In this document: in pieces, positions 36,850 to 63,952 of the stretch
Numbering within the stretch: the first letter of the stretch is position 1
Layout: every line of letters begins with the position of its first letter
Assembly (NCBI GenBank): GCA_950295325.1
Contig: OX485806.1
Span: forward strand, 53,315,169 to 53,379,168
Direction: 5' to 3'
DNA length: 64,000 bases
Source of the DNA: Polytrichum commune
Lineage: Eukaryota > Streptophyta > Polytrichopsida > Polytrichales > Polytrichaceae
Notes under the pieces: model-generated
Seen by the model: only the letters and a program-made list of their open reading frames with translations
Database searches by the model: none
What the model was told of the DNA's origin: nothing
Program-made: the position numbers and the translations under genes

Positions 36850-36868
36850 CTCACCCCCACCAAACGGA
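36850..36868 (-). other. B1 polypurine tract
   Basis: On the minus strand TTTGGTGGGGGTGAG abuts the LTR start. The same sequence lies at 41222-41240 in B2. Confidence 0.75.
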
Positions 36869-37679
36869 GTAGATGCCCTCATCGACTATACTCGTAGTCG
36901 GCACACCAATTCTCAAGTTGCCATCCTCTATGATGCCGCATTGTGTTTACCTTAGGGCGCGACCCCCACAATGCATCTTCAAATTTGGCATGGTCCCAAA
37001 GGTGTCGTTCCTAGGTGGTCCGTTAGCGACCTTGGATCTCTCCTCCAAGGACCTAACTTACACTAGACCCACCTACTTTGGGACTCACTTGGGTTGCCCC
37101 TCCTTTGGGGCCTCCCCCCGTTAGGCTCCACTAGCCTAACATGACACATCTAGGCGAGACCTCAACGCTTCCACTAAGTTGTCTCGGTTGCAACTCCGAG
37201 ATGGCTTTCCATTGTTAAGCCACGCCTCGATCGCACGGGGGTGATGCCAAGTCCCGCCCGATTCGGTTCACACTTTGCTCTTTCGAGACATGGGTTCATG
37301 ACTCCCATGCGCCAATTCTCGTTAGCTCGCGGGTAGCACTTTTATGAGCACGCGCCATCACCTTGTCCCCGCCCGGACAAGCCCACAACTAAGAAGTTTC
37401 TTGGTTTTATCCAAGGCCCCTCCAAGCCATGGCCCCCAATTACTCGGCTTACCCAACCTAGTTTGGCATATCTATTCCCCCTCTTCCATTAACCAAGCAC
37501 AAGTACAAGACTAGGACCTCATCTCATATTTTTCTCTTTGCACCACTAAAGTTTGGACTTTATTCCCTCAAGCCAAAGAACAAGTTCATGTTGTGGAGTA
37601 ATTAACCTCGAAGCTAAGTGTGCTACTAGCGTCTCTCCCCCACTAAAGGAGATTGATGTCCTCATCAATGCCTACGCTT
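36869..37679. other. B1 3' non-coding stretch
   Basis: Between the chromodomain end and the purine tract. No gene; the matching stretch in B2 is 41241-42050. Confidence 0.5.
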
Positions 37680-39480: not shown

Positions 39481-40250
39481 AGCTTCATGCTCCCATATGC
39501 AATGGCCATCCAATTACACATAATCCACCATTGGCAAAGTCACTCATCCCCGTATGCACCTCAAAAGGTTTGTCAAGCTCCGCGAACTTGAGCACGGGCG
39601 TCTAAGAACACTTGCTCTCAAGCTCCCCAAAGACTTGGTGGCAAGGCTCATCCCACTCTTGGGATAGCCATTTCTTCCACAAATCGGATAAGGTCGGATA
39701 ACCATCAAGCTTAACGCTCTCATATGCAATGGCCATCCATCTTACGTTAACCATCCGCCAATGGCAAAGTCACTCGCCCCCCCCCCCCGTATGCACCTCA
39801 AAAGGTTTGTCAAACTCTGCGAACTTGAACACGGGTGGCAAAGACAACTTTGTATTAAGCTCCCCAAAGACTTTTGGGGCAAGGCTCATCCCACTCTTGA
39901 GATAGCCATTTCTTTCACAAGTAGCACAAGGTTTGACAACTTTTAAGCTTAATGCTCCCATATGCAATGGGCATCCATCTTGGATCAACATCCGTCAATG
40001 GTAAAGTTACTCGCCCCCGTATGCACCTCAAAAGGTTTGTCAAATTTCACAAACTTGAGCACGGCGGCGAAGAGAACTTGGTCTTAAGCTCCTTAAAGAC
40101 TTGGTGGCAAGGCTCATCCCACTTTTGGGATAGCCATTTCTTGCATATGTTGGACAAGGTCGGACAACCATCGAGCTTCATGCTCTTATATGCAATGGCC
40201 ATTCATTTTGCCTCAACATCCGCCAATGCTAAAGTCACTCGCCCCCGTAT
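39480..40250 (-). repeat. Tandem repeats of the RT-RNase H junction in B1
   Basis: Copies of a 228-237 bp unit, landmark CGTATGCACCTCAAAA at 39551, 39788, 40018 and 40246, the last resuming at 47299 beyond B2. Each unit covers the end of RT and the first strand of RNase H (minus-strand words FGELNTKLSLPPVFKFAEFD, PFEVHTG). B2 entered exactly at one landmark (CGTAT). Confidence 0.85.
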
Positions 40251-41221
40251 TGTCGTAACCCTTGCTAGGTCCCTTAACAATCTTGCCAATTTTCGTTTCT
40301 AGCAAAGGTTACGAGCGCTAACCATTCGCATTCCGCCATGCTAATGGATAGCTCCTCTTACCCCGGACCAATAGTTCATAAGAGGGAACCAACCCTCCTA
40401 CTTTGCTTTCGGGACTCACCCCTTAATCGGTAACCCATTCCTAGATGTGGACTTCCATCCATGGAAGTCCAATCCTATGTTGATCATCGCGTTGCCGGAG
40501 CAACACTACAACAACCCGAAGCATACTAGGCAACTATGGCCTCACAATAGGCCAAAGCCCATGGAGGCCTTGCCGTTCGGCCTCGGGTGGGTGAGGCCAC
40601 ACCACCTCACCCATATAAGCCTCTAGGACTTTACACGGGGCCCCTACCCCACCGTCAACCAACCTCTTGTCTCTCTACCAAGAGTTGGGGCCAAGTGGAC
40701 ATTTTCCTTTAGCTGCTGGGCCTAGAACCCCCCAGCAGCTTCAGACCATCATAACTTCCTTGTATGATGTCTGATCATAACAACCAACCACTTCATCTTC
40801 ATCTACGCTTCACGTAGATGCCGATGGACTCCTCACTTGCCCCATTCGGGCAAGTATTGAGGAAGTAATGCCTGTTTGAACCTTGGCAGTCCCGGGAATC
40901 ACTCCCAGGCACTGCTGTACCAGGGCGCTGTCCCGGGACAGCGCCCCACTCAAATGGCCATAACTCCTAGCTCACACCTCGGATTGAGGTGTTCTTGAGC
41001 ATTCTAGAATCACCACGCCATGAGCTACGCATAGCTCATGGCCTTACCCTTGTGCCTCCTAGTCTTCGTGGGTGGGAGGCGTTCCCAACGCCCGGGACCC
41101 TCACCCACACTAGGATCACTTGGGCCCTCTCACCAACGGCGCCACAAGTCCCGGGTGTCACTCCGGGGTCCCCCTTGTGCCCATGGTGTTTCGGGCACTC
41201 CTCATGGAGAGGTGCGCGACA
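40251..41221 (-). repeat. B2 3' LTR
   Basis: 971 bp, TGTCGTAACC to GTGCGCGACA; it carries the same two palindromes as B1 (40449-40470 and 40923-40946). Confidence 0.95.
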
Positions 41222-41240
41222 CTCACCCCCACCAAACGGA
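41222..41240 (-). other. B2 polypurine tract
   Basis: GGTGGGGGTGAG on the minus strand, touching the 3' LTR. Confidence 0.8.
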
Positions 41241-42050
41241 GTAGATGCCCTCATCGACTATACTCGTAGTCGGCACACCAATTCTCAAGTTGCCATCCTC
41301 TATGGTGCGGCATTGTGTTTACCTTAGGGCGCGACCCCCACAATGCATCTTCAAATTTGGCATAGTCCCAAAGGTGTCGTTCCTAGGTGGTCCGTTAGCG
41401 ACCTTGGATCTCTCCTCCAAGGACCCAACCTACACTAGACCCACCTACTTTGGGACTCACTTGGGTTGCCCCTCCTTTGGGGCCTCCCCCGTTAGGCTCC
41501 ACTAGCCTAACGTGACACATCTAGGCGAGACCTCAACGCTTCCACTAAGTTGTCTCGGTTGCAACTCCGAGATGGCTTTCCATTGTTAAGCCACGCCTCG
41601 ATCGCACGGGGGTGATGCCAAGTCCCGCCCGACTCGGTTCCCACTTTGCTCTTTCGAGACATGGGTTCATGACTCCCATGCGCCAATTCTCGTTAGCTCG
41701 CGGGTAGCACTTTTATGAGCACGCGCCATCACCTTGTCCCCGCCCGGACAAGCCCACAATTAAGAAGTTTCTTGGTTTTATCCAAGGCCCCTCCAAGCCA
41801 TGGCCCCTAATTACTTGGCTTACCCAACCTAGTTTGGCATGTCTATTCCCCCTCTTCCATTAACCAAGCACAACTACAAGACTAGGACCTCATCTCATAC
41901 TTTTCTCTTTGCACCACTAAAGTTTGGATTTTATTCCCTCAAGCCAAAGAACAAGTTCATGTCGTGGAGCAATTAACCTCGAAGCTAAGTGTGCTACTAG
42001 CGTCTCTCCCCCACTAAAGGAGATTGATGTCCTCATCAATGCCTACGCTT
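41241..42050. other. B2 3' non-coding stretch
   Basis: No gene seen. Closely matches 36869-37679 in B1. Confidence 0.5.
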
Positions 42051-43460
42051 CATTTTATTGGAATCCTTAGCCTTAGTTTCTTCAAAGTGCTTCACCAATT
42101 CATTGGTGTTCACCATGTCTCTTGCCGCCACCCAAGCGGTTTCTTTCTCATGGTATCCTCACCATTTCACCAAATACTCATTTGTACATTTTTTTTTTCA
42201 TTTTCACTTGGGCTTCCTACACTTGAGGATGCCCTCCTACCTCATGTTCCAAGTGACCTCCACAAGGTCGGGACGTGGCCTAATCACTTGCTTGTGATCG
42301 GGCCACAAGGTGTCGTCCTAAAATGACTTTCGTAATGAGACATGAAATGTCGGATGCACTTTGATGTCCGGCGGTAATTCCAACTTATACATGTCCTTGA
42401 ACACTTGTTGCACAATGGAAAACGAAGTTCCAATTTTGGACATGAACTTTTGAAGTAAGGCCTTTGGGCAAGGTGAAGTTGTCCACATTCAACAACACCT
42501 TATTGGCCCACCTCATACTCCACTTCGCGTCTTCCGGCATTGATTTGCACTCCGTAGCACCTTCGGGCTTTCTCCACCAACAACTTGGTCATCTCCAAGA
42601 CTTGTTTACCATCCTTGGCCAAGTCCTCACCATCTTGGTTGAACTCTAGTGTTGAATGTGCCCCCTCGAGAGCTAGGTTAATAGGTTGGAGCGCATCCAC
42701 TCCATAAGCCACCACCAAAGACCACCCCTTGGTAGCCAAGTGCGTGGCTACATTGCAATTACACTCCGCTCGACCCACATAGTCCGCCCAATCTCCTTGG
42801 TCCGCCCCCACCAAGTTCCTCAAGTATTGCTTCAAGACTCCATTCACACGCTCCGTTTTCCCAAATATTTGGGAATGCAAGGCCGTGCTAAACCTTAGTT
42901 TCATTGCGACCTCCTTAGAGAAATGCATTGAAAATGCACTTGTGAACTTTGGATCTTGATCCCACACAATCACTCTTGGCAACCCGTGGTGCCTCAACCA
43001 TCCTTTGAGAAAAGGCTATGCGGTCTCCAACGCGGTGGCGGTTCCCACAATCAGCACCATGTGTGCCAACTTGGCAAACCGCTCTACCATCAACAAGATG
43101 GCATCATACCCATGTGACTCCGGCAAACTTGTGATCAAGTCCATGCACATACTATGCCATGGCGCCGACGGGATAAGCAACGGTTGCAAGAAACCGCCTT
43201 GCTTTTGGTAAGAGGCTCGGTTCACTTGGCACTTTATTCACGCCTTCACAAAGTGGGTTATATCCTCCTTTATGCACCGCCAATGGTACCTCCATGACAC
43301 CATTCTATGGCGGTTTTTCCTTTCTCCTCTATGGCCGGCAATAGGACTATCACATTTTTCCTTCAAAACCGATAGCCTCAACTTGCCTTGAGGCACATAC
43401 ACCCGACTTTGCTTGCACTTGAACAATCCGTCCACCAACTTAACCTCTTTGAGCACCTTG
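42051..43460 (-). pseudogene. B2 integrase with chromodomain (fossil)
   Basis: Minus-strand order: zinc-domain remains (43238-43456), the first catalytic strand region WHSMCMDLITSLPESHGYDA (43016-43225), the rest of the core with VIVWDQDPKFTSAFSMHF and ERVNGVLKQYLRNLVGADQG (42500-42997), then C-terminal VHPTFHVS-type sequence and a chromodomain-like stretch around 42060-42240. It is very close in sequence to B1's integrase, so the two are sister copies. Confidence 0.8.
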
Positions 43461-43854
43461 CTCTTGCGAAGCTCACCTAAAAGCTTTTGTGCCTCGGGGT
43501 AGTTAATTTACCCCTCCCGTATCTTGCATCACAAGTTTCCTTCGCCGGCACACATTAGCCACAAGGTTTGGATGGTTCTCATTGCTTGGAACTCATCCGG
43601 TCTACTTAGCGCATCCGGCACCACATTTTCATGGTCCGGTTTGTGGATCAAATCCACCTTCATAAGCGCCAAACTATCATGCCACCGCAATGAGTTGGCG
43701 CTCACTTGCGCTTGTATATGTTAAAATACTTTTAGGACACATTGTCCATGTAGACCTTTGCTTTGTGCGACCCCAAATAATGTCGCCACATCTTCAAGCA
43801 ATGCACTACGGCAAAGAAGTTCTTTGTCATGAGTTGGTTGTCTTCTTTGACAAC

Positions 43855-44400
43855 CATCGAGCCTCAAGCCCCCATATGCAAAGGCCATCCATCTTACATT
43901 AACAATCCGCCATTGGCAAAGTCATTCACCTCCGTATGCACCTCAAAAGGTATGTCAAGCTCCGCGAACTTGAGCACAGGCGGCGAAGAGAACTTGCTCT
44001 TAAGCTCCCCAAAGACTTGGTGACAAGGTTAGTCCCACTCTTGGGATAGCCATTTCTTTCACAAGTCGGACAACCATCGAGCTTCATGCTCCCATATGCA
44101 ATGGCCATCCATCTTATATCAACAATCCGCCATTGGCAAAGTCATTCACCCCCGTATGCACCTCAAAAGGTTTGTCAACCTCCGCGAACTTGAGCACGGG
44201 CGTCAAAGACAATTTTGTATTAAGCTCCCCAAAGACTTTGGGGCAAGGCTCATCCCACTCTTGAGATAGCCATTTCTTTCATAGGTCGCACAAGGTTTGA
44301 CAACCTTTAAGCTTAATACTCCCATATGCAATGGGCATCCATCTTGGATCAACATCCGCCAATGGTAAAGTCACTCGCCTCCATGTGCACCTCAAAATGC
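43855..44400 (-). repeat. Tandem repeats of the RT-RNase H junction in B2
   Basis: Three copies of a 220-229 bp unit with landmarks at 43933, 44153 and 44382. Same unit as in B1, but a different copy number. Confidence 0.85.
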
Positions 44401-44860
44401 TTATGAAAACCCGGAAACTTAACCACATCTTGTGAAGGGAACTTGCTCTTGAGCTTCCCAAAGGCTTGGTGACAAGGCTCATCCCACTCTTGGGATAGCC
44501 ATTTTTTCAACAAATTGACTAAGGTCCTAGCAACCTTAGAAAAACCTCGAATGAAGTGGTGGTAGTAGTTGGCTAGGCCAACAAATGACCTAAGCCATTT
44601 TCTTGAGTCAAGGACCAATTCTCCTTTTGGATGGCCTTGATATTCTTCATGTTTGTCACCAACTTCCTTTGTCACCACATACCTCTAGAACTCAATATGT
44701 TGTTGAGCAAAGTTATTTTCATTTCTTGGCGGTAACTTTTGGGCAACACATTGGTGAATACATCATTGTATCTCCCCAACATCCCACCAAAGTGGTTTAG
44801 GGGAGGCCCATCTTTCCTAGCCTCCCCATAAGTTCTATCGAGTTGCTCCAATTGAACCAC
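44349..44860 (-). pseudogene. B2 reverse transcriptase remains (fossil)
   Basis: Visible parts are the RT N-terminal lead-in (GMLGRYNDVFTNVLPKSY) and the connection LRSFVGLANYYHHFIRGFSK followed by CHQAFGKLKSKF. The central palm motifs of the enzyme are not seen, so this is a reduced RT. Confidence 0.7.
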
Positions 44861-46290
44861 GACTATTATGCTTTCTATTTTTCATTTGGTCCATTAAGAC
44901 CAAATTCAACTTAGATCCTCCTACCATAGGAGTCCTTGTCAATTTGAACTTCAATTCTTTGCCATTATGACACATCATAATGCACCGCAAGCACACCGGC
45001 TTGCACCTCACATCTATCATGTGAGTTTCAAAGTAGGCGGCCTTCACAATGACATGCATTTCATCTATTTCACTTGGTGTGAAATTTTGACAAAAATCCA
45101 ATGTCCCACATTGAAAGGTTACATGCATCGCGGCCTCCTTTGTCTCATTCGGTTTGCCCTTTCCAAACCGCACCTTGGTGGGCTTGCCCGCTCTACCAAT
45201 CGGCAAGCCCCAACTCCCTTATGAGTTTTGGGCTCAAGAAGGCATGGCTTGCCTCTTTGTCAACCCATTAGACGTTTGTCCCATTCATTTGAGCCTCAAG
45301 ATATAAAATAGTTGGCCTTGGCTTAAGGCTACTAGCCTTGGCCACAATGCCATCGTCTTACATTTGGTCCTCGGCAACTTGGCTTGGCTTGGTCCGCAAA
45401 GCCAACTTTAAACATTTCGTCCGCGGGACAAATTGGTTTGGTGCCACAAAACCAATTTCTAATAGTTTGTCCGCAAAACAAACATGTTTTGCCTTGGTAG
45501 CACAAACCCACCTTCCCACACTCCGTCCACGGCACGAACATGAATTGCCTTGGTAGGACAAACCCACCTCCCAACATTCCGTCCGCGGCACAAGTATGAT
45601 TTACTTTGGAAGCATAAAGCCACCTTTCAACATTCTGTCCGCGGCACCAACATGTTTTGCCTAAGTAAAATGGACCAAACAATTTGCACTCATTTCTTTG
45701 GGACCTAATTTGGCTAAAGCCACTTGTGGTGATGCGCCGCCAAACTTCTCTTTGGGACCATCGGCTTCAATGCTCTTGCAAATTTGATGGTCCCCACCAT
45801 GTCCTCAAGAAGCCTTGGGGACTTAAACAAGGCATCCACCACCCGCTTTTAAAACCCCACCTAAAAGGATGCATTTCTTAGAAAGCTCGTCCGTTTTAGG
45901 TGTATCCTTCATTTGTGCGTTTGAATAGCACACATAGGCCTTAAGAAGCCCCGGGTGCCTCATTAGCACCAAATTCATTCCAACATCAATACCTTCCAAG
46001 CATTTCGAATTGGAATTTCAATCCAACATTAATGCCCTCCAAGGTTTTGGGTCCTTTCGGTATTCTAGGCCCCAAATGTTTTTTTGAGGTTTGAGGGAGC
46101 CTTTTTCAAAGCACTCCTCCATTTTCCTTACCAAATCCACCCTCATGCCCACCATTGTCATTAGAACCAATGGTATGGTCAAATTCCACTTGCACATGAT
46201 CCTTGTTCCAATTTGAGCCTCACAACCTTTTGGAAACCCCGGGCTCACCATCATAACCCTCACGTTTGATAGCCATGTCTCCCTCAAAGT
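44861..46290 (-). pseudogene. B2 gag/protease region (fossil)
   Basis: The minus-strand frame at 46018-46287 opens near the primer site. The stretch at 44835-45206 has protease-like strands (DFCQNFTPSEIDEMHVIV, HNGKELKFKLTRTPMVGG). Between them lies a Cys-rich tandem block (45366-45660). The matching B1 region is 47737-48898. Confidence 0.6.
45366..45660 (-). repeat. Six Cys-rich tandem repeats of about 50-57 bp in B2 gag
   Basis: Landmark GTCCGCGGCAC-like words at 45366, 45418, 45468, 45524, 45580 and 45637. On the minus strand each unit gives a short Cys-containing peptide with aromatic and Gly residues, as expected from multiplied zinc-knuckle-like sequence of the nucleocapsid. B1 shows only about one unit near 48275-48305. 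Confidence 0.7.
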
Positions 46291-46313
46291 GCTAGCTCAA
46301 ATATTGGAACCCT

Positions 46314-46325
46314 GCTCTGATACCA
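46314..46325 (-). other. B2 primer-binding site, initiator tRNA-Met
   Basis: TGGTATCAGAGC on the minus strand, two bases from the 5' LTR; it complements the 3' end of plant initiator tRNA-Met. Confidence 0.85.
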
Positions 46326-46327
46326 AG

Positions 46328-47298
46328 TGTCGTAACCCTTGCTAGGTCCCTTAACAATCTTGCCAATTTTCGTTTCTAGCAAAGGTTACGAGCGCTAACC
46401 ATTCGCATTCCGCCATGCTAATGGATAGCTCCTCTTACCCCGGACCAATAGTTCATAAGAGGGAACCAACCCTCCTACTTTGCTTTCGGGACTCACCCCT
46501 TAATCGGTAACCCATTCCTAGATGTGGACTTCCATCCATGGAAGTCCAATCCTATGTTGATCATCGCGTTGCCGGAGCAACACTACAACAACCCGAAGCA
46601 TACTAGGCAACTATGGCCTCACAATAGGCCAAAGCCCATGGAGGCCTTGCCGTTCGGCCTCGGGTGGGTGAGGCCACACCACCTCACCCATATAAGCCTC
46701 TAGGACTTTACACGGGGCCCCTACCCCACCGTCAACCAACCTCTTGTCTCTCTACCAAGAGTTGGGGCCAAGTGGACATTTTCCTTTAGCTGCTGGGCCT
46801 AGAACCCCCCAGCAGCTTCAGACCATCATAACTTCCTTGTATGATGTCTGATCATAACAACCAACCACTTCATCTTCATCTACGCTTCACGTAGATGCCG
46901 ATGGACTCCTCACTTGCCCCATTCGGGCAAGTATTGAGGAAGTAATGCCTGTTTGAACCTTGGCAGTCCCGGGAATCACTCCCAGGCACTGCTGTACCAG
47001 GGCGCTGTCCCGGGACAGCGCCCCACTCAAATGGCCATAACTCCTAGCTCACACCTCGGATTGAGGTGTTCTTGAGCATTCTAGAATCACCACGCCATGA
47101 GCTACGCATAGCTCATGGCCTTACCCTTGTGCCTCCTAGTCTTCGTGGGTGGGAGGCGTTCCCAACGCCCGGGACCCTCACCCACACTAGGATCACTTGG
47201 GCCCTCTCACCAACGGCGCCACAAGTCCCGGGTGTCACTCCGGGGTCCCCCTTGTGCCCATGGTGTTTCGGGCACTCCTCATGGAGAGGTGCGCGACA
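46328..47298 (-). repeat. B2 5' LTR
   Basis: 971 bp, identical by eye to 40251-41221. Confidence 0.95.
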
Positions 47299-47303
47299 CG
47301 TAT

Positions 47304-52054: not shown

Positions 52055-52719
52055 GCACTGGAAGAATTGACTGCATGAAACCCTACTTCTGTCTCATGTC
52101 AGACATTCATAACCCCGGCTGCTTTTAGGATCTGAGTAAGGTGAGGTCCAATGGCGGTTTGTTTGACCTTCACTGAGCTTTGTGAGTGCTTTTGGTGGAG
52201 CTTCACAATCGCGTTACGAAGTTCTTGATGAAATTCTTCTACCCAATCAATGGCATGACCATTTAGAGCTGCGAGGATCAATTCTGCAAATGGTATGGAA
52301 ACATGGTTGTGACCCGTGGTATTAAGACAAAATAAAAAGCTGAGGATTCTGAGAGGTTTCTTTGCACCTAGATATGTGCAATCAGTCACCTTTACTGCCT
52401 CTTGTCCATCTGCTGCTGTCATGAGTGATGGAAATAACTCTGTAAACTCCCATTGCTTGGTTGAGACTCTTTTGCGGTTTGTGAATTCAAAAGTGTCCCG
52501 TAGTTGGGTTCTCCAGTCGAATGCCAACAATGGAAATGTTTTGCTTTGTACTGTAGTCATCATGGTGGATACTTCAAGATTGGATACTGCCTCTCGAATC
52601 AAAGCCTCATGTAATACTCTCCATGTGACCCGGGTCACAAAGCCATCAAAATTGATTTGCTTGAGGAACTCAGTTTCCTCCAAGGTGAACTGATGGTGCT
52701 GGAAAACTACATCTACCAC
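52055..52719 (-). CDS. Element D accessory ORF, N-terminal part
   Basis: A 206-codon open frame starting at the ATG at 52719: FTLEETEFLKQINFDGFVTR, WRVLHEALIREAVSNLEV, KQWEFTELFPSL, then KKPLRILSFLFCLNTTGHNH, AALNGHAIDWVEEFHQELR. The hydrophobic block followed by IDW matches VNW in the 532-codon accessory protein and FNW in family H, so this is the globular half of the same kind of protein. It sits after integrase, the place of the third ORF in Athila-type elements, which that group is known to reach by splicing. Function unknown; an envelope-like role is not supported, as no signal peptide or membrane span is seen. B1 lies just beyond its end. Confidence 0.55.
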
Positions 52720-54335
52720 AAAAATGTATCTTTCTGGCTACTCCTCTCCCTGTTTCCTCTTCATGGCTACACAATCAACTTCCTTAATTTTGATCACCGC
52801 TCTGCACAATAACCCTTGGTAAATATGAAACTTGCACAACTGCGGGTACCACTAGAACTCACTCGTGCTCCAGCGGACTGAGGTAAAACCTTGCAGACAC
52901 TTGGTTTGCAAATTCTTCCAGAATATTCCCTACTCATGCAGCTGCGGCTAATCTCATATAAGGTCTCCATCTCCGCTTCCCTTTTAGCTCTCACTGAACA
53001 ATCTGGTAGTTTCTCTAACTTCCTCAATTCGGGTGCCCATGGGGCAATTGTTGCGCGTGGTTTTGAGCGTTGGTTCCTCCGTTTGCAACTCACTTGTGTA
53101 TTCAGCTGAAATTTGGCGGTTGGAGTTCTTGATTCGGGTTTTACAAACTCCAGCTGGCTTGCTTTCTCTACCTGTGGGTGGTGGGTCCCGTTCCTTGCTG
53201 GACTCCTCGACCTTTCTCGAGGTATTACCCTTCAACCTGATTTTTACTGTGCAAGTTGTGTTTTCACTTCACTTACTGACTTTGTGTAAGTGGTTCATTC
53301 GCAGGTACCGTAAGTCCTCCTCTTTTGTGGGATTCCCCACTTTGGTGGGTTGAATCCCCATTTCTTTGGGGCTCACCTTGTGTGGGCCCCTCCAATAAAA
53401 TCAAAATCGGAATTAACTTCTTCATTCCCTTGGATTTCTGATGTTTGTGTTGGTGTGTGTTATTGAATGTTTGACTCTGATGGTAACTTGAAATTCAATG
53501 TGGATCCCCTTTGTTGTGCGATGTGTTCACTCTTGCCTACTGGCTTGGAAGTGGGAATTTCTGGTTTATATTACTGTGTCATGGGGACTTGCACGCTCAA
53601 ATTCATTCCAAGGATCTACTTACCCATAGTGCAAACAACTTCATTATTCCACCAAGGCTTCTTCAACACCCTAGTACTTATTTAAGTGTTCTGAAATCTA
53701 TTTCGTGGGATTTGGTCTTCCACAAGAAAAATAGCTCACAGGTTAAGCCCTCAAAGCTTTCTATCTATCCTTAACAAAATTTCTGACTTTCGCCATCAGA
53801 TAAAGCTTCTTCTTCATCCTGTTGCTTCAAGATTCTATCCAAACTTCAACCCAAAATTCAATTCCCCTTCAAACAGATTGTCATCCAATCATCTAACTTT
53901 CCCAGGTTAACCCTTTTAATTAAAAGTAAAAAATCCAAGCTTTCTTCATCCATCTAAGGTGATGTGAAAATTCAGAATACTCAAAAATCTTCACCCTTCT
54001 CAAGTTGTAAGTTGACTCTTCCGTGGTGCTAATTCCCGAAATTGCGTGTTTTCCTTAATAATTGAATCTTCACTTATTGGGGTACGATGTAATTCATCCA
54101 TGTATCCTACTTGTTTGCAATCTCTTCCATCCTTACAAACTACTCCTACTTAGCCTTTTGGTAATTCTTGGTAAAATGTTTATTTTGGCTATGTTTCCTC
54201 CGTGTCGGCTTAGGTACTAGTGACTTCTCTCTTAATCCTCTCATCCTTTAATTGCGATGGAGGGCTCTCACTGGGTTACTATTCCAGTTGGTGGCCCCCG
54301 GTGAGTCTTTACCTGGGGGTGGTTGCTCTCAACTC
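52720..54335 (-). other. Element D spacer between integrase and accessory ORF
   Basis: About 1.6 kb, mostly without clear coding signal. A charged minus-strand stretch at 52794-53235 (TRIEEVRETTRLFSES) may be part of an untranslated or decayed leader. Such spacers are normal in front of the third ORF in Tat/Athila elements. Confidence 0.4.
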
Positions 54336-55880
54336 TCATTCGGGAGGTCGTTCGACCCTATAATGCCCTAATGTTAGTAGGGTGGTGGATGGGGAATTGG
54401 TCCTAATGGGTTTTGATTTGAAATTTTCTCTCATAACTTGTTTTGGTGCCACTAAGGTCAAGGTTCTCTGGTGAATGTTTATGGGGACATTATCCTCTTG
54501 TGGTGGGTTGCTCCCCTTCTCTATCGGGTGGTTAATCATATCACTCTCATATTTTGATGGTTGTATGTAGTAGCTTTCTAGCATGATTTGATGTGCTTCC
54601 AAGTCCTCCGCCTCTAGGATTTCTTGATCTTGATAAGGGGTAGATCCAGTGTGTGAGATGGTGTCCTCCTTTGCTTGAGAAGATGTGATAATGGGGAAAT
54701 GTGTGTGACTACTCTCCTTGTGTAAATGGTTTTGGTCTGCTCTAATTTCCGCTTCCAAGATGTGGCATGCTAGAATTTGTAAGGCATAGGCTTGGGTTGT
54801 TTTTGGCTCTTGGTATGGTTTTAATTTGTTCATGTTGACTCGTCCCAAGCTATCTCCTTGTAGGGTGGTAACATCCATTGACCCATTTTTGTATACTTGC
54901 TTTATCAGGTAGGGTCCTGCCCACCGGATTTTGAATTTACCCGGCCTGGGTATTTTATGGCGTAAGTGCCACAAGATTCTTTGGCCGGGATAGAAACGGG
55001 TCTTGGTTATAGGGGTTTGTTCCACCTTTTTGGAAGAGGATTGGATTGCCTCTATCGCTTGTATGGTATCATGTTTATTGGCCTCCTTTTTTGGGGGCTT
55101 GGTTATCCCATGACCACATTGTTTACATGGCGTCTTCACCTTTGACTTGTCGTGCCTTTCCTTCCGTAATAACTGCATGTGTTTCATGTTCTCCTCAGCT
55201 TCATGTCGAGTGAGATCCATCACCTTGAGTTGTTCCATCCTCTTCTCTAGAACGGGGTGAATCTTTTGACTCCAGTTTTTATAAACATGGGGGTGAAGAT
55301 AAGCCATAGGTAACAAGGCTTCTGTCCCGAACACTAATGAAAATGGAGTGTGCTTGGTTGTGACCTTATAGGCTGTCCTATAGGCCCAAAATGCTGCATG
55401 TAATTTGGTATCCCAATCCGTTCGATTGGCGTTGACCATCTTGGTTAAGGCAATTTTTATTACCTTGTTGGTACTTTCGGCTTGCCCGTTAGCTTGTGGG
55501 TAGTACGTGGTTGACTTCCGGTGTAAAATCATAAATTCTTGAGTGAGCACCTTGATAGTGTCGTTGATAAAATGACTTCCTTGGTCGTTCACAAACTCTA
55601 ATGGACATCCAAATTTTGTAATTATTTCTTCAAAAAAGAATTTGGTTGTTGACTTAGCCGGGTTATCCTTTAAAGCTTTGGCTTCTACCCACTTGGTGGT
55701 GTAGTCCGTAGCTGTGATAATGTACCGATTCTTGGTACCTTTAGCCGGTGGGTTGACCGGTCCAATGAAATCCAAACCCCACTTTTGAAAGACCTCCGTG
55801 GGCATTGTGGGATGTAGGGGTTGGAGGTTGGTTGAGATTTCGGGGCCAACTCGTTGACAGATGTCACATTGAATGCAATA
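54336..55880 (-). CDS. Element D integrase core and C-terminus
   Basis: On the minus strand: CIQCDICQRVGPEIS (end of the last zinc module), the catalytic core with KWGLDFIGPVNPPAKGTKNR, FVNDQGSHFINDTIKVL and TTYYPQANGQAESTNKVIK (DDE residues in place), WAYRTAYKVTTKHTPFSLVF and GTEALLPM. The C-terminal domain contains an additional CKQCGHG motif, RFYPGQRILWHLRHK and KIRWAGPYLIKQVYK (GPY-type). A long tail of about 140 polar residues follows. The core looks well preserved. The CxxC in the C-terminal domain is not a usual part of gypsy integrases. Confidence 0.85.
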   Translation of the reverse strand, partial: YCIQCDICQRVGPEISTNLQPLHPTMPTEVFQKWGLDFIGPVNPPAKGTKNRYIITATDYTTKWVEAKALKDNPAKSTTKFFFEEIITKFGCPLEFVNDQGSHFINDTIKVLTQEFMILHRKSTTYYPQANGQAESTNKVIKIALTKMVNANRTDWDTKLHAAFWAYRTAYKVTTKHTPFSLVFGTEALLPMAYLHPHVYKNWSQKIHPVLEKRMEQLKVMDLTRHEAEENMKHMQLLRKERHDKSKVKTPCKQCGHGITKPPKKEANKHDTIQAIEAIQSSSKKVEQTPITKTRFYPGQRILWHLRHKIPRPGKFKIRWAGPYLIKQVYKNGSMDVTTLQGDSLGRVNMNKLKPYQEPKTTQAYALQILACHILEAEIRADQNHLHKESSHTHFPIITSSQAKEDTISHTGSTPYQDQEILEAEDLEAHQIMLESYYIQPSKYESDMINHPIEKGSNPPQEDNVPINIHQRTLTLVAPKQVMRENFKSKPIRTNSPSTTLLTLGHYRVERPPE

Positions 55881-58800
55881 GAGATGAACATCCTTCTTCA
55901 TAGTGGGCCACCAATACAAGGCAGTTAAGACTTTGTGTAAGGTGATTGGCTGAAAAGTGCCCGCCAACTATTCCTTCATGAGTTTCTGCGATAATGGTTG
56001 TAGTTATCGGTCCGGCTACGCACGTTCGCCGTATGCCATCTGGTCCTTCTTTGATCAAAGTGCCATTATGGTTTAGCATATACGGGCGGCTTCGTATGGC
56101 TATTTGTTGCCGCTGCGTGGTTGACGCTTCTGTGGTTAATTGACCATGTGTTAGGTAGTCAATGAAAGGTGTACTCCAATCCTGTTCTTCTTTGTCTTTA
56201 ATTGTGACAATCTTGCAGTCAACAAAACGCTCCGGGGATTGATTGGGCCAACAAATCCTACATTTCTTGCATAGGTGGTCAATGTCCGGAGGAATTGTGG
56301 GCCACCAATAAGGTCCTATGGTGACTTGTAAAATCATTTCATCCATCGAAAGATGTGGGTACCGTTGATTGTGAATGGTTGTCAACCATTCGATTCCCTT
56401 TTCTTCTGCGATGCAAAGTTTGATATCACCATTTGCAAATCTTCGCTTCAATTCCCCAACTTTTAGGAAATAGCTGGGTAATTCTTCTTGTGACACCCCC
56501 AATTCTTGATGGAAGGCAAAACTGCTTAGTTCCATTGGGTCTTTGAGGTGTTGGATGATTGGTTCTCTCTAATCATGTGCTTTCTCGTCTTGGAAAACGA
56601 TGGTCCCATAACTATGGGTGTTGGGGTCCGATCTTATGGTGATTTGACAAGTTTTGCATCCGTCGGTTACCTGCTCCTTTGTCGTCAAAATGGTTGGCCA
56701 CCAATATGGGCCTTTGTGCACTTGTGTGAGTATCTCTTCTTCCGTCAAGTGTGGTATTTGGTATTCATGTATCCGTTTTAGCCAATCCAACGCGTCCTCT
56801 TTTGTTACGCACATTTCTACTTCCTCATTTGGTAATCGGTATTTCAAACCATCCTCGGTTATGAAATAAGTATCGGTGTCGGGGCTAAGTAATTCCAACT
56901 CTTCTTGTGGGCCAACATGATTCAACTTTTCCAAGCTTTGTAGTTGTTGGGTGATCGGTTGTCTCCAATCAGGCTCAGGTGTTGTTCTTGTTGGAGATGA
57001 GTTTTGACTTTTCTTTAGGTGTTTCTCCCAGGTCTTCGCTCCTCTGCAGGTTTTGCAGTATCGTAAATGGTTCCACACGTCATTTCCCCATGTCGGCCAC
57101 CAGTGTGGTCCTGTGGCCACGGCCTTCCATGTTTCTATGGCGGCCAAGTGGGGCTTGCTTTCTCCATGAGTCTCGGTTAGGTACCTGAATACTTGAGTCT
57201 TGGGTATACAAATCTGGTTACTCTTTCCTCCTTTGCGTATTCGTTGTAAAGTACCGTTGATGAACACAAAATACTTATGGCTCTGCATTACCGCCCTTCT
57301 AACCTCGGGTGGTAAGGTTTGGTTGAAGATCTTCTTGCATGTCAGGTACTCCATGTAAGGACGCCTCCAATCTGTGGTAATTGAATTTTGTAGGTCCTTG
57401 TTACTTAGAAATGTTCATGTTTCCTTATCTTTCGCAAACCATATGTGATTGTTGCAGACCGGACATTCCCAATTGGATAATCTTTTAATGTCCGCTTGGC
57501 ATGTAGGCCACCAGTACGGTCCAAACATGAGAAGGTGCCATGTTAGCTCTACACTAAGGTGTTTCCCTGATTCAGTAACATGTAAGTCTTGCAAGTATTT
57601 GTTAGCTTCGGGTCCGGGAATACATATCTTAATGTCTCCATTCAAAAATATCCTTTTCAGTTTTCCTTCTTCAAAGAAGTATTCCCTACTTTGTCGAGCC
57701 GTTTTCTTGTGTTGCTTTTTGGAGATGGAGGCCCTTTTTAGGTACTCGTATGTGAGGTATTCTATTAATAACCTCCCCCAATCCTTGTTGTCATGTGATT
57801 GTACGGTGATGGACACGCAAATTATATTACGGGGCTTGTTTTGAAATAATTCCCGACATGACGGACAATCATACATGATGTAATGTTGTATCTCACAAAT
57901 CCCCATCGTGGGCCACCATCGATTTCCTTTCGAACACCGAAACCAAGTTTGATCAGCGTTCAAATGCATTTGTTGGTATATGTGCATTTCCCCTATCCAT
58001 TGTTTGATTTGATCTTTTGCAATGCATTCCTTGGTCTTTCCATTCTTCTCTAATATTTTTAGTTTCCCTTCTTCCATCGTGAAAAACTCGCTTCTTCGTA
58101 TGATTTCTCTGTGTTCCATTCTCGTAATTGTCGCCACTTTGATTTCTCCGTGGGTCAGATATTGAATTAGCGGCGTTCTCCAATCGTTGTAGGTTTCCTT
58201 ATAAGGTATTGCACTTTCCGAGGTACTAGGTTCGTGGGGGCCTCCCTCTGTGGGCAGCTCGTCCCTTTTCTACCACAATCTGTACACAATGTAATGAACG
58301 ACGAGAGATCTTCTGCTATGGTGGGCCACCAATATGGCTCTTGTAAGATTAGTTGCAGGGTGGCATTGACTGAGTAATGTCGATTCTCTCGGATGTGAAA
58401 AGCCTTTATATAACTTCTCACGTACTTCCCGGGCATGCATCTTTTGATGACATTATTGTGGAAGATGCGATGTAATTCCCCTTCCTTAAGTATAAAGAAT
58501 TGGCTGCGATAAGCTATCAATTGTTTTTCTTCTGTAGGTAAGTCACTTTCCCATTGAGTTCCATGGGTCAGGTATTGGACATAGGAAGTTGTCCAATCGG
58601 GATCTGGTCCTCCTGTCAAATTTTCTCCTGCTTTCAAAGGCTCGATTGGTAGTAAGTCATCGTGGTCTTCGGTATCGGGTGGAGAGAAGGTGTCATGCAT
58701 CTCTCCATTGTTCACCATCTTACATACTGGGCATTCTTGGCAATAAGCCAAAACATCCTTCCTACGAGTAGGCCACCAGTAGGGTGTGCTTAGGATATAC

Positions 58801-59050
58801 TGCCATGTGGTAGTAAGATTGAAATGTGTACCTTCATGTTCATGGGCTTCACTTATAATTTCTTCGATGATGTCCCCGGCTACGCACTCATGTATTTTGC
58901 CGGAGATACTGATCCGCTTGAGCTTTTTGTTGTCTAGAACAAATGGTTTGCTTAGCTGTCAAATCATGTCTTGTTCTTGTGGTGTAGCTAGAGCTGACAA
59001 CAACCTTCCGTGGGTAAGGTATTCCATGAAAGGTGCTCGCCAATCTTCGA
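55860..59050 (-). CDS. Eight-fold tandem array of RNase H-integrase linker plus HHCC zinc modules
   Basis: Normally one HHCC zinc domain precedes the integrase core. Here the unit recurs eight times. Each unit has a linker of the type DWRxPxxxYLTHG, a strand-rich part with GxLxR and an xCI/xCM site, then H-x4/5-H, the YWWPT signature, and C-x2-C. The YWWPT codons (GGCCACCA on the plus strand) lie at 58771, 58324, 57911, 57506, 57095, 56696, 56300 and 55906, mean period 409 bp. All eight keep two His and two Cys (for example HIRENRH/CTDC, HVTESGKH/CPVC, HEYQIPH/CKTC, HNQRYPH/CRIC), though overall they are diverged from one another. Only the last borders the integrase core. The region is broken in a few places. 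Role of the extra modules unknown; extra nucleic-acid or protein contacts are the obvious guess. Confidence 0.88.
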
Positions 59051-59538
59051 AGGGTTGCACCTGCACCATGAAAAGGTTGGCGTCCGGAAACTGATCTTGT
59101 ACCCCCGAGGGGTCTTCTCTGCTTTCTATTCTTGATAGGTGGTCAGCCATTACATGGCTTCTACCAGGTTTGTAAACTACTTCAAAATCGTATTCTTGAA
59201 GTAAAAACATCCATCTCGCAATTCGCCCGGATACGACTGGTCGATTGACCAAGTATATCAGGGCTTGATGGTCCACGTAGAAAACAAAATGGTTGGCTAG
59301 TAAATAGTGTCTGAATTTGCCCACTGAGTAGATCATTGCTAGGGCTTTACGCTCCGTTGTATTGTAGTTTTTTTTCTGCATTGTTTAGGAGTCGACTCGC
59401 GTAATGAATTGGAGGATCTCTATCTCCATGTATGTTTTGGGCCAAAACGGCTCCAATCGCTATGTTTGACGCATCGCAGTGTACGTGAAACTCCATTGTC
59501 CAATTGGGAATTACCAAAATGGGTGTGGTTGTTAACAT
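58985..59538 (-). CDS. Element D RNase H
   Basis: FHVHCDASNIAIGAVLAQ opens the domain. PPIHYASRLLNNAEKK, the TTERKALAMIYSVGKFRHYL helix, VDHQALIYLVNRP and the terminal GRSHVMADHLSRIE follow. The LSRIE ending and the order are those of Tat/Athila elements. The domain runs straight into the first linker of the zinc-module array (DWRAPFMEYLTHG at about 59005-59044). Confidence 0.85.
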
Positions 59539-59543
59539 TTTCT

Positions 59544-60377
59544 TTACTTCTTCAAAGGCCGAGTGATTTCAGCGTACATCCATATGAATTTCCGATGGTA
59601 GGTAGCTTGTCCCAGGAAACTCCGGATCCCTCGTACGGTGGTTGGTGGAGGTAATCCCTTTATAACTTCCACCTTTTTAGGATCCACTAGCAATCCTTCT
59701 TTAGAAACCACATACCCTAAGAGTCTCTTTGAATTAACACAGAAAAAACATTTCTCTAGGTTCAGGCTGACTCCATTCTCGCGGCATTTAACGAGACATT
59801 TTTCCAAATGTTCAATGTGGTCTTCCTTGGCTCCATATACTGTGAAATCATCTAGAAACACCTTCATGAATTTGTTGAGGTAATCGGCAAATATCTTCAT
59901 CATGCCTCTTTGGAAGGTGGCTGGTGCACACATCAATCCAAAGGGCATTATCTTGTACGCAAATACTCCGTACTCGGTAATGAAAGAAGTCTTCAGCTGA
60001 TCTTCTAAGGCGATCATGATTTGGTTGTAGCCACTGTACCCGTCCATTAACGTGTACATTTCGTGTCCTGCAACTGCTTCCAAGATTGATTCCGTAAAAG
60101 GTAGAGGAAAATGGTCCACCTTGGTGACTGCATTCAATTTTTGGTAGTCGATGCACACTCGCAATTTCTCATTCTTCTTGGGTTCAATTACGATTGGTGA
60201 CAACCATTCGGTTTTATCCACGGGATATATGAATCCCGCTTCCAAGTACTTGTCTATTTCTTCTTTCACCTTGGCTGCGTAATTGGGGTTCATCCTATAA
60301 CGCATTTGTCGTACCGGCTTGGCTTCCGACTGTAGCTCAATCTTATGCTCGCACACATGAGGGGGTATTCTCTTCAT
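59544..60377 (-). CDS. Element D reverse transcriptase
   Basis: A 277-codon open frame: IPPHVCEHKIELQSEAKPVR, KYLEAGFIYPVDKTEWLSPI, LRVCIDYQKLNAVTKVDHFP, YTLMDGYSGYNQIMIALEDQ, FAYKIMPFGLMCAPATFQRG, FMKVFLDDFTVYG (the catalytic FLDD variant of YxDD), GVSLNLEKCFFCVNSKRLLG and the connection GIRSFLGQATYHRKFIWMYA. All seven RT blocks are present. DGYSGYNQI and APATFQR are typical of the Tat/Athila group. Confidence 0.92.
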   Translation of the reverse strand: MKRIPPHVCEHKIELQSEAKPVRQMRYRMNPNYAAKVKEEIDKYLEAGFIYPVDKTEWLSPIVIEPKKNEKLRVCIDYQKLNAVTKVDHFPLPFTESILEAVAGHEMYTLMDGYSGYNQIMIALEDQLKTSFITEYGVFAYKIMPFGLMCAPATFQRGMMKIFADYLNKFMKVFLDDFTVYGAKEDHIEHLEKCLVKCRENGVSLNLEKCFFCVNSKRLLGYVVSKEGLLVDPKKVEVIKGLPPPTTVRGIRSFLGQATYHRKFIWMYAEITRPLKK

Positions 60378-60412
60378 GTCTTTGTATGTGAAAGCAAATA
60401 CATCCTTGAATT

Positions 60413-62242
60413 TTAGGAGTTGCAGCTTGGTTCTCGTAGCGTCTTCAGACTTTTTAAGTCAAAATCTCCCATGGGTAATAGCTCTGGAAATGCTTCATAG
60501 ACTACCGCTTCTTCTTCATCGGACAGTTTCATTTCCCAGTTGTAGTCCTCCCAATGTAAGGGTCTTTTGGCCGGTGATAGTGCTGGAATTTTTTGGGTGC
60601 TTATCTCCACCTTGTTTCCTCCTTGCATTAGGGTTAATTTGTTGAGGGGCCAATCATGCCGTGCTTGAGTCTCCTTCAACCATGGTCTTCCCAATAATAG
60701 GGAGTAGCTATCTTCAGAACTCACCATGTCTATGACAGTGAGTGTCGTCCGGATTATAATTCCGCCAACATCAAGGCGTACATCCCGAATAATTCCCTTG
60801 GGCGTGACCTTCCTCTGGTCAGCCATCTTAATGGTAAATGGTGTGGGCTCTATCTTCTTGAGTCCCAATTTCTTCCTCAATGCGTCTGTGATAATGTTCA
60901 CTCCCGATCCACCATCGATCAATGCGTTCGGTACTCGTTTGTTTTTCACAATTACGGAAATCATAGGCATTTCTTCATTGAATGCCTTTGCCGTCACTTG
61001 ATAGGTTTGAGTTGGTTCTTCCGATTTTTCATCATTTGCTAATGCCGCCATTATTTGCTTCTTGCAATAAGGGGCCATTTCTAGCAACTGTCCTATTGAT
61101 ATGTTTGCTTTTGTGTGGTTCATCACATTCTCCAATATCTTATCTACCCTTGCATGGGTAGTTGTTCGGACGCCTCTTTTCTCGGGGCTCCGTTCTTTAG
61201 GCTTCCCTGCCTCTTCTTCTTCTGGGTACCAAGGTGCGAACTCCTCTAGCGTGGGTAGAGCTTCGCCCTCTTCCTCCTGTATGTCCTTGATAGTTTTACT
61301 CACCTCCCGGTGGACTTCCCTATCAGCTTTCCATTCATCGTTGTTGGCTCCTATTGGCCTCTCTTCACTTTTCCTATCATCATCCAGGTGTGCATCTTGT
61401 TCGCACACATCATCCTTCTCTTCATCAAAGTTATCTTCTCTTTGCTGGTGGTCTTCCCGCTCCTCAGAGCTGCCATTACTTGAATCATCATCATCATCAC
61501 TATCATCACTTTCATTATTTTCCTTGCCTTCCTCGGCTGCAACCCGCTGGAATCTCGTCATAACACACACAGCAGGGGACACCGCATTGGCTCCCACAAC
61601 TAGCTTAGTGTTTCTAAACCCATTCAACTCCTGTTGATGTTTAATAAAATGCGGACAATCCGGCTTCCGGTGCCCCTTCTGATGACAATAAAAACACTCG
61701 TTAGGGTTGCCATCTCGCTGTGGTCCTCCAGTGAACCCAGTTCTCGGCGCTGCTTTGGTGTTGTTATTATCCATCAGGCTTCTGGTATACTCATACCTGT
61801 CATGGTTGATAGGTCCTCTGTGGCCTCCTCGGTAGGGGTATCCATCTTCCCTTCGGTAGTCTTGGTTTTTGTAGGGGTAATAACCTTCCCTCCTAAATTC
61901 ATCTTTGTAGTTGTCGTTGGGCCTATAGTATGGCCGTTCTTCTCTGCGATATTCATTTCCCCGATAGGGGCCTCCTGCCTCCTGCCGGTAATCGCCTTCC
62001 CTATATGGGGATTTGTTATCTCTTCTAAATTCTGTTCTTGGTTCGAACCGGACTCTTCTCTCATTCATTTCTCGCCTAGGAGTTATTGCTCCTGGCCTTC
62101 GATTTGATTGGGGTTGTATTTGGTTTACCCCATATCTTCTATCTTGGGGCCTCCGAGATTCATGCCTCTCATAAACACATTCGCTTGTGTTGTGGGTTAG
62201 GCTATTGCAATTTGTGCATTGCTTCATTTGACATTCTTGCAC
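60413..62242 (-). CDS. Element D nucleocapsid and aspartic protease
   Basis: A 609-codon frame. N-terminal Cys cluster CTNCNSLTHNTSEC; then an Arg/Tyr/Glu/Gly-rich stretch with repeated YRREDGYPYR-like words (about residues 30-150); a CCHC knuckle CFYCHQKGHRKPDC; a very acidic region (about residues 235-330, ESDDSDDDDDSS); a VDKILENVMNHTKANISIG helix; then the protease with NALIDGGSGVNIITDALRKK and SYSLLLGRPWL. The active site reads DGGS instead of DTGA, as is usual in this branch and as seen in element A. Confidence 0.85.
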   Translation of the reverse strand: MQECQMKQCTNCNSLTHNTSECVYERHESRRPQDRRYGVNQIQPQSNRRPGAITPRREMNERRVRFEPRTEFRRDNKSPYREGDYRQEAGGPYRGNEYRREERPYYRPNDNYKDEFRREGYYPYKNQDYRREDGYPYRGGHRGPINHDRYEYTRSLMDNNNTKAAPRTGFTGGPQRDGNPNECFYCHQKGHRKPDCPHFIKHQQELNGFRNTKLVVGANAVSPAVCVMTRFQRVAAEEGKENNESDDSDDDDDSSNGSSEEREDHQQREDNFDEEKDDVCEQDAHLDDDRKSEERPIGANNDEWKADREVHREVSKTIKDIQEEEGEALPTLEEFAPWYPEEEEAGKPKERSPEKRGVRTTTHARVDKILENVMNHTKANISIGQLLEMAPYCKKQIMAALANDEKSEEPTQTYQVTAKAFNEEMPMISVIVKNKRVPNALIDGGSGVNIITDALRKKLGLKKIEPTPFTIKMADQRKVTPKGIIRDVRLDVGGIIIRTTLTVIDMVSSEDSYSLLLGRPWLKETQARHDWPLNKLTLMQGGNKVEISTQKIPALSPAKRPLHWEDYNWEMKLSDEEEAVVYEAFPELLPMGDFDLKSLKTLREPSCNS

Positions 62243-62248
62243 ATAATG

Positions 62249-62971
62249 TCATTCATTTCGGCATCGCCGACAAATTATACCCGTTCTGAACATCCGGCTT
62301 CCCAAAGCCAACCCTCCTATCTCTTCTCTGAGAGTCTTGATGTCATCCTTAGTCAAGTTAGTCTTCTTTTTCTTCTTCCGCCGATCTTTTTCTGAGTCAT
62401 CACTTGACTCTTCACTATCACTTTTATCGAGGAATATTTCTTTCCTTATTTGTCCTAATTCCAACTTTCGTGCCGATGCTTTTGCTTCATCCAAGTCATC
62501 AGTCGGCATTAAGTCAAGGTGTTTAGCATATTCTTTTTTCAACCCATTAAGGAACCATGCTTTCTTGAATTGATTACTCGGTTGAGGGTTGATTTTTGAT
62601 GATTCCACCATAACCCTGTCATAAAATTCTTCGACTCTCTCGTTTTTCTTTTGTTTGAGGGAACCTAAGCTTTCAATGACTTCCCCCTCCGATTTCTTTG
62701 ATTTGAATCTCATAAGAAAAGCAAGTCCCAAGGCTGGCCAATCTGGAAAATGATTCGGGCCAAATTGGGAGTACCATTCTAATGCTCGCTTCTTCAAGGT
62801 AACTGGAAATAATTGCATCTGTGTCTTCCTGGTTGGCAAGACAAACATTGTTAAATTCTTGCATGTAAGTATCTGGATCAGTCTTACCTTTATAGGTCGG
62901 TAAGGGAACCTTTGTTCTCCGAGGTTACAAGGCCATGTTGGCCGGGTTGGGTGGGTTGTTTCCAACACCAA
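62249..62971 (-). CDS. Element D gag capsid region
   Basis: Retrotransposon-gag capsid signature: LKKRALEWYSQFGPNHFPDW, FLMRFKSKKSEGEVIESLGS, LKQKKNERVEEFYDRVMVES, FKKAWFLNGLKKEYAKHLDL. A Ser/Asp-rich then Lys-rich tail follows and leads to the first Cys cluster of the nucleocapsid. Confidence 0.85.
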   Translation of the reverse strand: MVLETTHPTRPTWPCNLGEQRFPYRPIKVRLIQILTCKNLTMFVLPTRKTQMQLFPVTLKKRALEWYSQFGPNHFPDWPALGLAFLMRFKSKKSEGEVIESLGSLKQKKNERVEEFYDRVMVESSKINPQPSNQFKKAWFLNGLKKEYAKHLDLMPTDDLDEAKASARKLELGQIRKEIFLDKSDSEESSDDSEKDRRKKKKKTNLTKDDIKTLREEIGGLALGSRMFRTGIICRRCRNE

Positions 62972-63952
62972 GTGAATTGACTTTGATATTCACGTTATTT
63001 CCAAAGTTTTGAAATTGCTTAAGTCTTTCTTCAAATTTCCTTCCTAATTCATCAAATTCCTCTTGATTGATGGGCTTTTTGACTTCTTGGTCCGTTTGGT
63101 TCTGAGTGCTCCCTTCTGAAAAGCCGGAATCCTCGTAGCTCAATTGTTCTTCAAAATTCCTTTTCAGTTTTTCCCCCAACTCCTTTGGTTGAAAATATTT
63201 TCCTCGGCCGTGTTTCCTTGATGGGTTTTGTCATGCGCTTTATCTACTGGGGTATGCGTAATCGTGTTTCTACCTGTACCTTTTGTTCTCAAAACATAGG
63301 TTCCAAGAGGGGTACCTATTATCAGATCATCCTCATCTTCCTCGCTTACTTCCTGAGCTAAGTTTTCTTCGTTCAAGTCTTCATGTCCTTTGCTTGTCTC
63401 ACCATTACCTCCTCCTTCACTTTGACTTCTATGTCTTTGATGTCTGGTTGTTCCTAGGACGTGAGCTCTGATTCCCTCCTTTCCGTCATTCCATACCTTG
63501 GAGAAGATTATTGCTTGCAGCTCTTCTGGTAATTCATCGATGTCTCTTTCGAATTGTGATCGATATATAAAACCTATCTCTCTCTCCTTGTATACTTGCC
63601 ACACATTATCCTCATAAATCTTTTGCATGTCCCATATGAGATCGTGGAATTTCCTGGTGCCTTCCCATTTCCTTAGAGTTGTCTAACTCGAATCATATCT
63701 TGGATAATCCCATGGCCACTTACCCAAAGCTGAGATTCCTTGATGTTTTACTCTTTCCTCTCCTCCTTCTCTATCAACCTGCACATAAAACCCTCGAAGG
63801 TTAAATTGCTCCAATCTTCGCTGCACCGCCCTTTCTACACGGTTCTGTCTTCGCGGTCCACATGTTTCTGCCCACTCGCGTTCTTCATCTATGTCATGTT
63901 GGAGTTTTCCAGCCCATGTGGTACATATTCTCCATTTATTTCTGCCATCCAA
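62925..63952 (-). CDS. Element D N-terminal gag/leader frames
   Basis: Charged, mostly disordered frames just inside the 5' LTR. The first opens with an ATG at 63952 (WAGKLQHDIDEEREWAETCG). Next come a helical piece (RDIDELPEELQAIIFSKVW), an acidic patch (EEDEDDLIIGTPLGTYVL) and a Lys/Glu/Gln-rich piece ahead of capsid. No domain recognised beyond its position as the matrix-like N-terminus of gag. No tRNA primer site could be recognised next to the LTR. Confidence 0.55.

Follow-up and report, generated by a model that had tools for sequence, protein, structure and literature searches.

The closest described systems are the integrases of Ty3 (yeast; 7q5b) and of foamy virus, which are composed of an N-terminal extension domain (NED), an N-terminal domain with an HHCC zinc motif (NTD), a catalytic core domain (CCD), and a C-terminal domain (CTD). 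Each of them has one NED and one NTD. The integrase NTD is usually treated as a domain that occurs once per protein. In retroviral intasomes, NTDs make contacts with DNA as well as with protein. Analysis of a 64,000-nucleotide stretch of the Polytrichum commune genome (assembly GCA_950295325.1, contig OX485806.1, positions 53,315,169 to 53,379,168 of the forward strand; here called the window) revealed a damaged Ty3/gypsy copy, element D. Between RNase H and the integrase core of this element, eight diverged NED+NTD modules are positioned on the minus strand at 55.83 to 59.05 kb. The modules were named U1 to U8, with U8 adjoining the core. The domain order around U8 and the core is the same as in the Ty3 and foamy virus integrases, whereas the members of the family to which element D belongs (the array family) carry five, eight, or eleven modules.

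The module starts (the higher coordinate of each module in Table 1) are separated by 447, 413, 402, 411, 402, 396, and 393 bp. This corresponds to a mean of 409 bp, in agreement with the initial annotation of this DNA, which had described eight units of that mean period between RNase H and the integrase core. Each unit had been regarded as a linker plus a zinc domain that keeps its four ligands. The ligands were confirmed, as H-x(5-6)-H and C-x2-C are present in all eight modules. The HHCC part is preceded by an extension consisting of DW or its remnant, two helices, a beta hairpin, and a conserved Cys. This extension corresponds to the NED of the Ty3 and foamy virus integrases, so the supposed linker is a domain and the repeating unit is NED+NTD. 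Two further motifs had been assigned to all units. Of the first, WWPT is present in 8/8 modules and the full YWWPT in 6/8; of the second, DW is present in 7/8 (U7 has a stop at the W), and YLTHG occurs only in U1, U2, U3, and U8.

Nearly all pairs of window modules are 14 to 40% identical; U1 and the second piece of U8 reach 48%. The 14 NED+NTD sequences used to generate a hidden Markov model (HMM) came from proteins that do not belong to the family; most of these have a single module (one source, P0078, is probably from the two-module group described below). With this HMM, and with U8 scored as two pieces, all eight modules reached 37 to 71 bits; 200 shuffled versions of each stayed at or below 8.1 bits, which rules out a chance or compositional artefact; U1, U2, and U8 were the top scorers. 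The expectation of eight matches to PF17921 did not hold. The cut-off was reached by U1, U2, U4 (barely), and the second piece of U8; U5 to U7 scored below it, and U3 gave no match. PF17921 alone is therefore too narrow for these modules.

In the window, the array is interrupted by three in-frame stops, located at 58959-58961 (in U1), 57415-57417 (just after U4), and 56569-56571 (in U7, at the conserved W), and by two frame changes, near 58.2 kb (upstream of U3) and near 55.93 kb (splitting U8). Since gag and pol of element D are broken too, this looks like general decay of one copy. Pfam analysis of the minus strand revealed the order protease, reverse transcriptase (RT), RNase H, and integrase (the protease match on 60416-62248 scored 24.2 bits, 0.1 bit under the cut-off of 24.3), which is the pol order of Ty3/gypsy elements (Metaviridae). 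No Pfam chromodomain was found on the 543-amino-acid integrase open reading frame (ORF) at E values up to 0.1, a search that a diverged chromodomain could escape. An additional RNase H (PF13456, PF00075), which marks the Tat clade, was not found on the ORF pieces scanned, which cover the broken parts in part. No pair of long terminal repeats (LTRs) was found for element D, and the 9 kb beyond the window end are occupied by other elements. Dating of element D by its LTRs failed because no pair was found.

The assembly of the same genome (408 Mb, 64 contigs, seven of them large) was searched with U3-U4 as the query, which gave 180 matches. The 20 best-scoring of at least about 40 loci, counted by eye among the matches listed, were retrieved with 10 kb each; they do not represent a random sample. 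At 19 of the 20 loci, spread over all seven large contigs, U1 to U8 are present in order, with U1 split by a gap of approximately 2.7 kb at L029 and with changes of frame at several of the 19. The exception, L035, contains U1 to U6 followed by RNase H and the core of another element. Three loci (L026, L034, and L036) carry eleven modules, in the order U1-U2-U3-U1-U2-U3-U4-U5-U6-U7-U8. The signature of this order was detected at at least eight loci, and all three that were fetched have eleven modules. RNase H reads into the core without stops in L026, L027, and L031, and L030 has one stop, in the core. A sister family, picked among the weaker matches (L040 to L042), has five modules at 3/3 loci. 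Its first module is like U1 (55 to 56%) and its last like U8 of the public protein P0023 (88 to 95%). One stop occurs at each of these loci, in RNase H at two and just before the first module at the third; at all three, the five-module array itself is open. The number of eight modules thus stands for the window copy and varies between 5, 8, and 11 within one genome. Two pairs of copies on different contigs are near-identical over 10 kb (L030/L032 and L020/L021, 99.1% each), which suggests that eight-module elements have spread recently or that segments were recently copied.

A search of public proteins with U3-U4 revealed 13 proteins, 12 of which have at least two consecutive modules in window order; P0011 contains U3 followed by U1. 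The single open frame of P0030 covers part of U3 followed by U4 to U8 and the core, and Pfam H2C2 matches are found in five separate stretches of this protein. The search with U8 and the core gave 221 proteins, of which the best 120 were examined, and the search with a two-module profile gave 2158 matches, of which the best 120 were taken in. In the total set of 235 proteins, 51 score at least two modules, and 28 relatives scored as single have one module each. P0023 and P0028 have a U8-type module, and the module preceding it is not closest to U7 (42 to 46% to U6 or U1). Tanacetum P0178 and P0179 and Tarenaya P0229, which score two or three modules, were rejected as tandem arrays because their modules lie hundreds of residues apart. 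Named relatives include Adiantum, Riccia, and Fagus; the name prefix PITA presumably stands for Pinus taeda. Contig collections of viruses and of bacteria and archaea yielded no relative. P0215 is an integrase fragment of fern-like sequence; it is deposited under Enterobacter cloacae complex sp. GF14B and is most likely plant contamination of a bacterial assembly. Fern-type elements seem to have an unusual gene order, in which an aspartic-protease-like domain follows the integrase on its C-terminal side (Pfam labels of P0042 and P0168; P0044 by eye). The possibility considered in the initial annotation, that the array exists in one copy only, did not survive these searches, since the public relatives and the 19/20 further loci reject a single broken copy as the sole carrier.

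To describe selection on the modules, Nei-Gojobori dN/dS was determined for pairs with dS of 0.1 to 1.5; this is a simple estimate in which pairs are not independent and modules with stop codons were kept. The medians (number of pairs) were 0.09 (83) for U1, 0.18 (69) for U2, 0.12 (49) for U3, 0.15 (149) for U4, 0.14 (174) for U5, 0.19 (130) for U6, 0.14 (62) for U7, and 0.07 (55) for U8, compared with 0.04 (66) for RNase H and 0.03 (129) for the core. No module pair in this dS range reached a dN/dS of 1. The first- and second-block sets of the eleven-module arrays gave values of 0.06 to 0.20 from one or two pairs each, and the second-block U3 set had no pair within the range. In U1 to U7, the zinc ligands are kept at 576/587 positions, compared with 13624/16217 matches to the majority in other columns and 634/750 at other His/Cys positions. 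The corresponding numbers for U3 to U7 in public proteins are 112/114, 2418/3013, and 125/163. When neutral evolution was simulated from 617 open codons down to 85% identity, 0/300 runs remained free of stops; the protein used for comparison, P0030, owes its own listing to its open frame. Purifying selection acts on the seven extra modules. Low dN/dS, ligand retention, and the simulation together indicate that they are kept, less strictly than the core. The initial view that the modules were selected and are not a recent slip duplication is borne out by these values and by the clustering of modules by position across copies. Neutral tandem duplication or an assembly error would fit the stops and frame changes of the window copy and the damage in many other copies, and is extremely improbable given dN/dS of 0.09 to 0.19, the acquisition of stops in all neutral runs, and the same module order at 19/20 other loci, on all seven large contigs, and in public proteins.

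On balance, we prefer the reading that the integrase N-terminal module (NED and HHCC) was serially duplicated in a Ty3/gypsy family. U8, beside the core, would keep the ancestral role, and U1 to U7, added upstream and diverged into distinct positions, would form a selected multivalent nucleic-acid-binding arm. In the Ty3 intasome, the single NED contacts the DNA ends of its element; each extra NED+NTD would do likewise here, and the integrase would thereby hold a longer stretch of the LTR ends or a larger synaptic complex. By this analogy, binding of nucleic acid in several places at once, most simply at the element's own ends, is the most likely activity of the extra modules. Several points weigh against this reading. 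DNA or RNA binding, zinc binding, and intasome membership of the array are putative, and polyprotein cleavage might take modules off the integrase. With a dN/dS two to six times as high as in RNase H or the core, U1 to U7 may serve a less constrained function. The array is interrupted by one or more stops or frame changes at most of the 20 loci. The AlphaFold model of U3-U4 has a mean predicted local distance difference test score of 40, which is low confidence, and was used solely for the order of secondary structure; the P0016 model has a predicted template modelling score of 0.33, with U7 and U8 locally better.

Alternatively, proteolysis could release the extra modules from the polyprotein as a multi-finger protein of their own, which might serve in the particle as, e.g., a nucleic-acid chaperone or an RNA-packaging factor. 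In favour of this, RNase H and U8 flank a single block of approximately 950 residues formed by these modules, whose sequences have diverged from that of U8 and whose dN/dS exceeds that of the core; from the last Cys of one module to the next DW there are 23 to 41 residues. Such a released protein nevertheless appears unlikely, as every module keeps the integrase-type NED+NTD layout and the modules are in frame with the core in P0030, L026, L027, and L031. A role as scaffold only, in which the modules add protein-protein contacts for a larger integrase multimer, would draw on the protein contacts that NTDs make in retroviral intasomes besides those with DNA. By itself, it gives no reason for each position to keep its own sequence, and we consider it improbable.

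Phylogenetic analysis of the modules revealed one group for each position, and modules at one position are orthologous between copies; support for U8 is weak (54/56), and in a second module tree U8 splits. In this second tree, a single clade (100/100) comprises U1 to U8 and excludes the fern and single modules, and this seems to place the expansion inside the array lineage. These trees are built on few columns, and a long-branch warning was issued by the program for the joining of U2 and U5. In the core tree, 14 two-module proteins (seven named Adiantum) form one clade (100/100), and the array family is separate (99/97) and groups with the single-module proteins P0050, P0053, and P0061 (95/78). 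Independent duplication in the array family and the two-module clade is favoured by these groupings; a shared first duplication was not rejected (p values of the approximately unbiased test, 0.204 and 0.122).

From the eleven-module arrays, only U1 to U3 were included in the tree, and the second block of L036, with an incomplete U2, was omitted. The first blocks of all three arrays group with the window copy and L020 to L022 (subfamily A), and the second blocks of L026 and L034 group with the other eight-module copies (subfamily B); the split between A and B is supported by 100/100. From U4 on, the DNA of L026 is 95.2% identical to that of the subfamily B copy L027. Recombination joining U3 of subfamily A to U1 of subfamily B would explain both the block grouping and the L026 identity, and the same module order is found in P0011; we infer that the eleven-module arrays originated in this way. 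It is conceivable, though tentative, that the array is a modular, recombinable recognition arm, in which seven or more position-specific modules read a defined stretch of nucleic acid and block exchange between subfamilies changes the specificity. The stretch read may belong to the LTR ends of the element itself, to its genomic RNA, or to a host target. A targeting device, with modules recognising either a host protein or a DNA target site in the manner of chromovirus chromodomains, is a somewhat less likely explanation than a released protein. The differing module sets of the subfamilies and the blocks combined across them would suit changing targets, and contact of the Ty3 NED with TFIIIC is reported in the available part of PMC8632968, while low dN/dS and near-complete ligand retention speak against a fast change of specificity.

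Table 1. Features of element D in the window
Feature	Position	Strand	Evidence
RNase H domain and upstream linker of pol frame, in frame with U1	59041..59384	-	PF17917 1.3e-16 on ORF 58959-59384
Module U1 (NED+NTD, HHCC)	58698..59045	-	PF17921 50.3 bits on part after stop; outside HMM 70.9 bits
Module U2	58251..58598	-	PF17921 33.7 bits; outside HMM 69.2 bits
Module U3, HHCC present	57832..58185	-	No PF17921 match; outside HMM 40.6 bits, shuffles <=7.7
Module U4	57430..57783	-	PF17921 25.5 bits, at cut-off; outside HMM 49.4 bits
Module U5	57022..57372	-	PF17921 23.1 bits, below cut-off; outside HMM 44.5 bits
Module U6	56623..56970	-	PF17921 18.9 bits, below cut-off; outside HMM 43.7 bits
Module U7	56227..56574	-	PF17921 19.4 bits, below cut-off; outside HMM 41.0 bits
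Module U8, core-adjacent, near canonical single module	55833..56181	-	Two pieces: outside HMM 57.6 and 37.0 bits; PF17921 39.5 bits on second, none on first
Integrase catalytic core (rve) and C-terminal extension	54339..55832	-	PF00665 4.4e-9 on ORF 54339-55967
Reverse transcriptase	59547..60458	-	PF00078 3.1e-26
Gag and protease region, several broken frames	60416..62989	-	PF03732 9e-9 on 62252-62989; PF13650 5.6e-5 on 60416-62248

The integrase tail (54339-55300, minus strand) carries a long extension with a CxxCxxG-like motif between the core and the C-terminal part, which is also found in P0016 and P0025. An open frame of 212 amino acids (52102-52737), also on the minus strand, lies approximately 1.6 kb downstream of the integrase; no Pfam match above cut-off was found for it, and it may be an additional ORF belonging to element D or to one of its neighbours. 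Elsewhere in the window, LTRs of 2.9 kb at 11899-14793 and 19369-22263 are 99.97% identical and delimit a very young LTR element. The ORF between them (14797-18834, plus strand) is one open frame of 1346 amino acids with gag and protease matches and no RT or integrase match in Pfam; the young element is therefore probably non-autonomous. Another LTR family, with terminal repeats of approximately 972 bp and internal tandem arrays of 220 to 228 bp, is present at 35878-40139, 40251-47299, and L009:262-7301, and in the latter two copies the terminal repeats are 100% identical within each copy. A tandem array with a 170-bp unit (approximately seven copies, 88% matches) is located at 27012-28218.

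In the open-licence PMC literature, no published description of repeated integrase N-terminal domains was found. The available part of a 2019 plant survey (PMC6317226) does not mention a duplicated integrase zinc domain, and the terms "zinc," "H2C2," and "HHCC" do not occur in its main text. The "zinc finger arrays" in the accessible portion of PMC2774666 are CCHC motifs in nucleocapsid. The plant non-chromovirus clades (OTA, with Athila and Tat; Phygy; Selgy), as far as described in that portion of PMC6317226, are like the array family in being Ty3/gypsy elements without a detected chromodomain and in the order RT, RNase H, and integrase. Tat-like P0121 and P0116 (Fagus sylvatica) resemble the array in having a second, upstream NED+NTD-like module, but this module is degenerate, with a ligand lost in P0121 and the middle lost in P0116. 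The two-module gypsy elements form a group of 28 proteins, 11 of them named as from the fern Adiantum nelumboides, including P0042, P0043, P0049, and many of P0134 to P0158. Like the array family, they have RNase H, adjacent NED+NTD modules, and the core in one open protein (P0135, 1113 amino acids); unlike it, they have just two modules, and the core tree places them beside the array family, not inside it.

With the NED-NTD-CCD integrases, the array family shares the N-terminal extension, HHCC, and DDE core, as found in the P0030 sequence, in the fold of P0016 for U8 and the core, and, for HHCC and rve, in the window. P0030 matched prototype foamy virus (PFV) integrase at 2.7e-17 and Ty3 at 3.5e-7, and the P0016 model aligns to PFV 8-272. 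Where those integrases have a single NED+NTD, eight are found in the window, eight or eleven at 19/20 loci, and five at 3/3 sister loci. The array is thus an example of modular evolution within a retroelement enzyme, a conserved repeat array of varying length. With five, eight, and eleven modules in one genome and relatives at one and two, these elements constitute a natural dosage series for the roles of NED and NTD in synapsis, RNA binding, and targeting.

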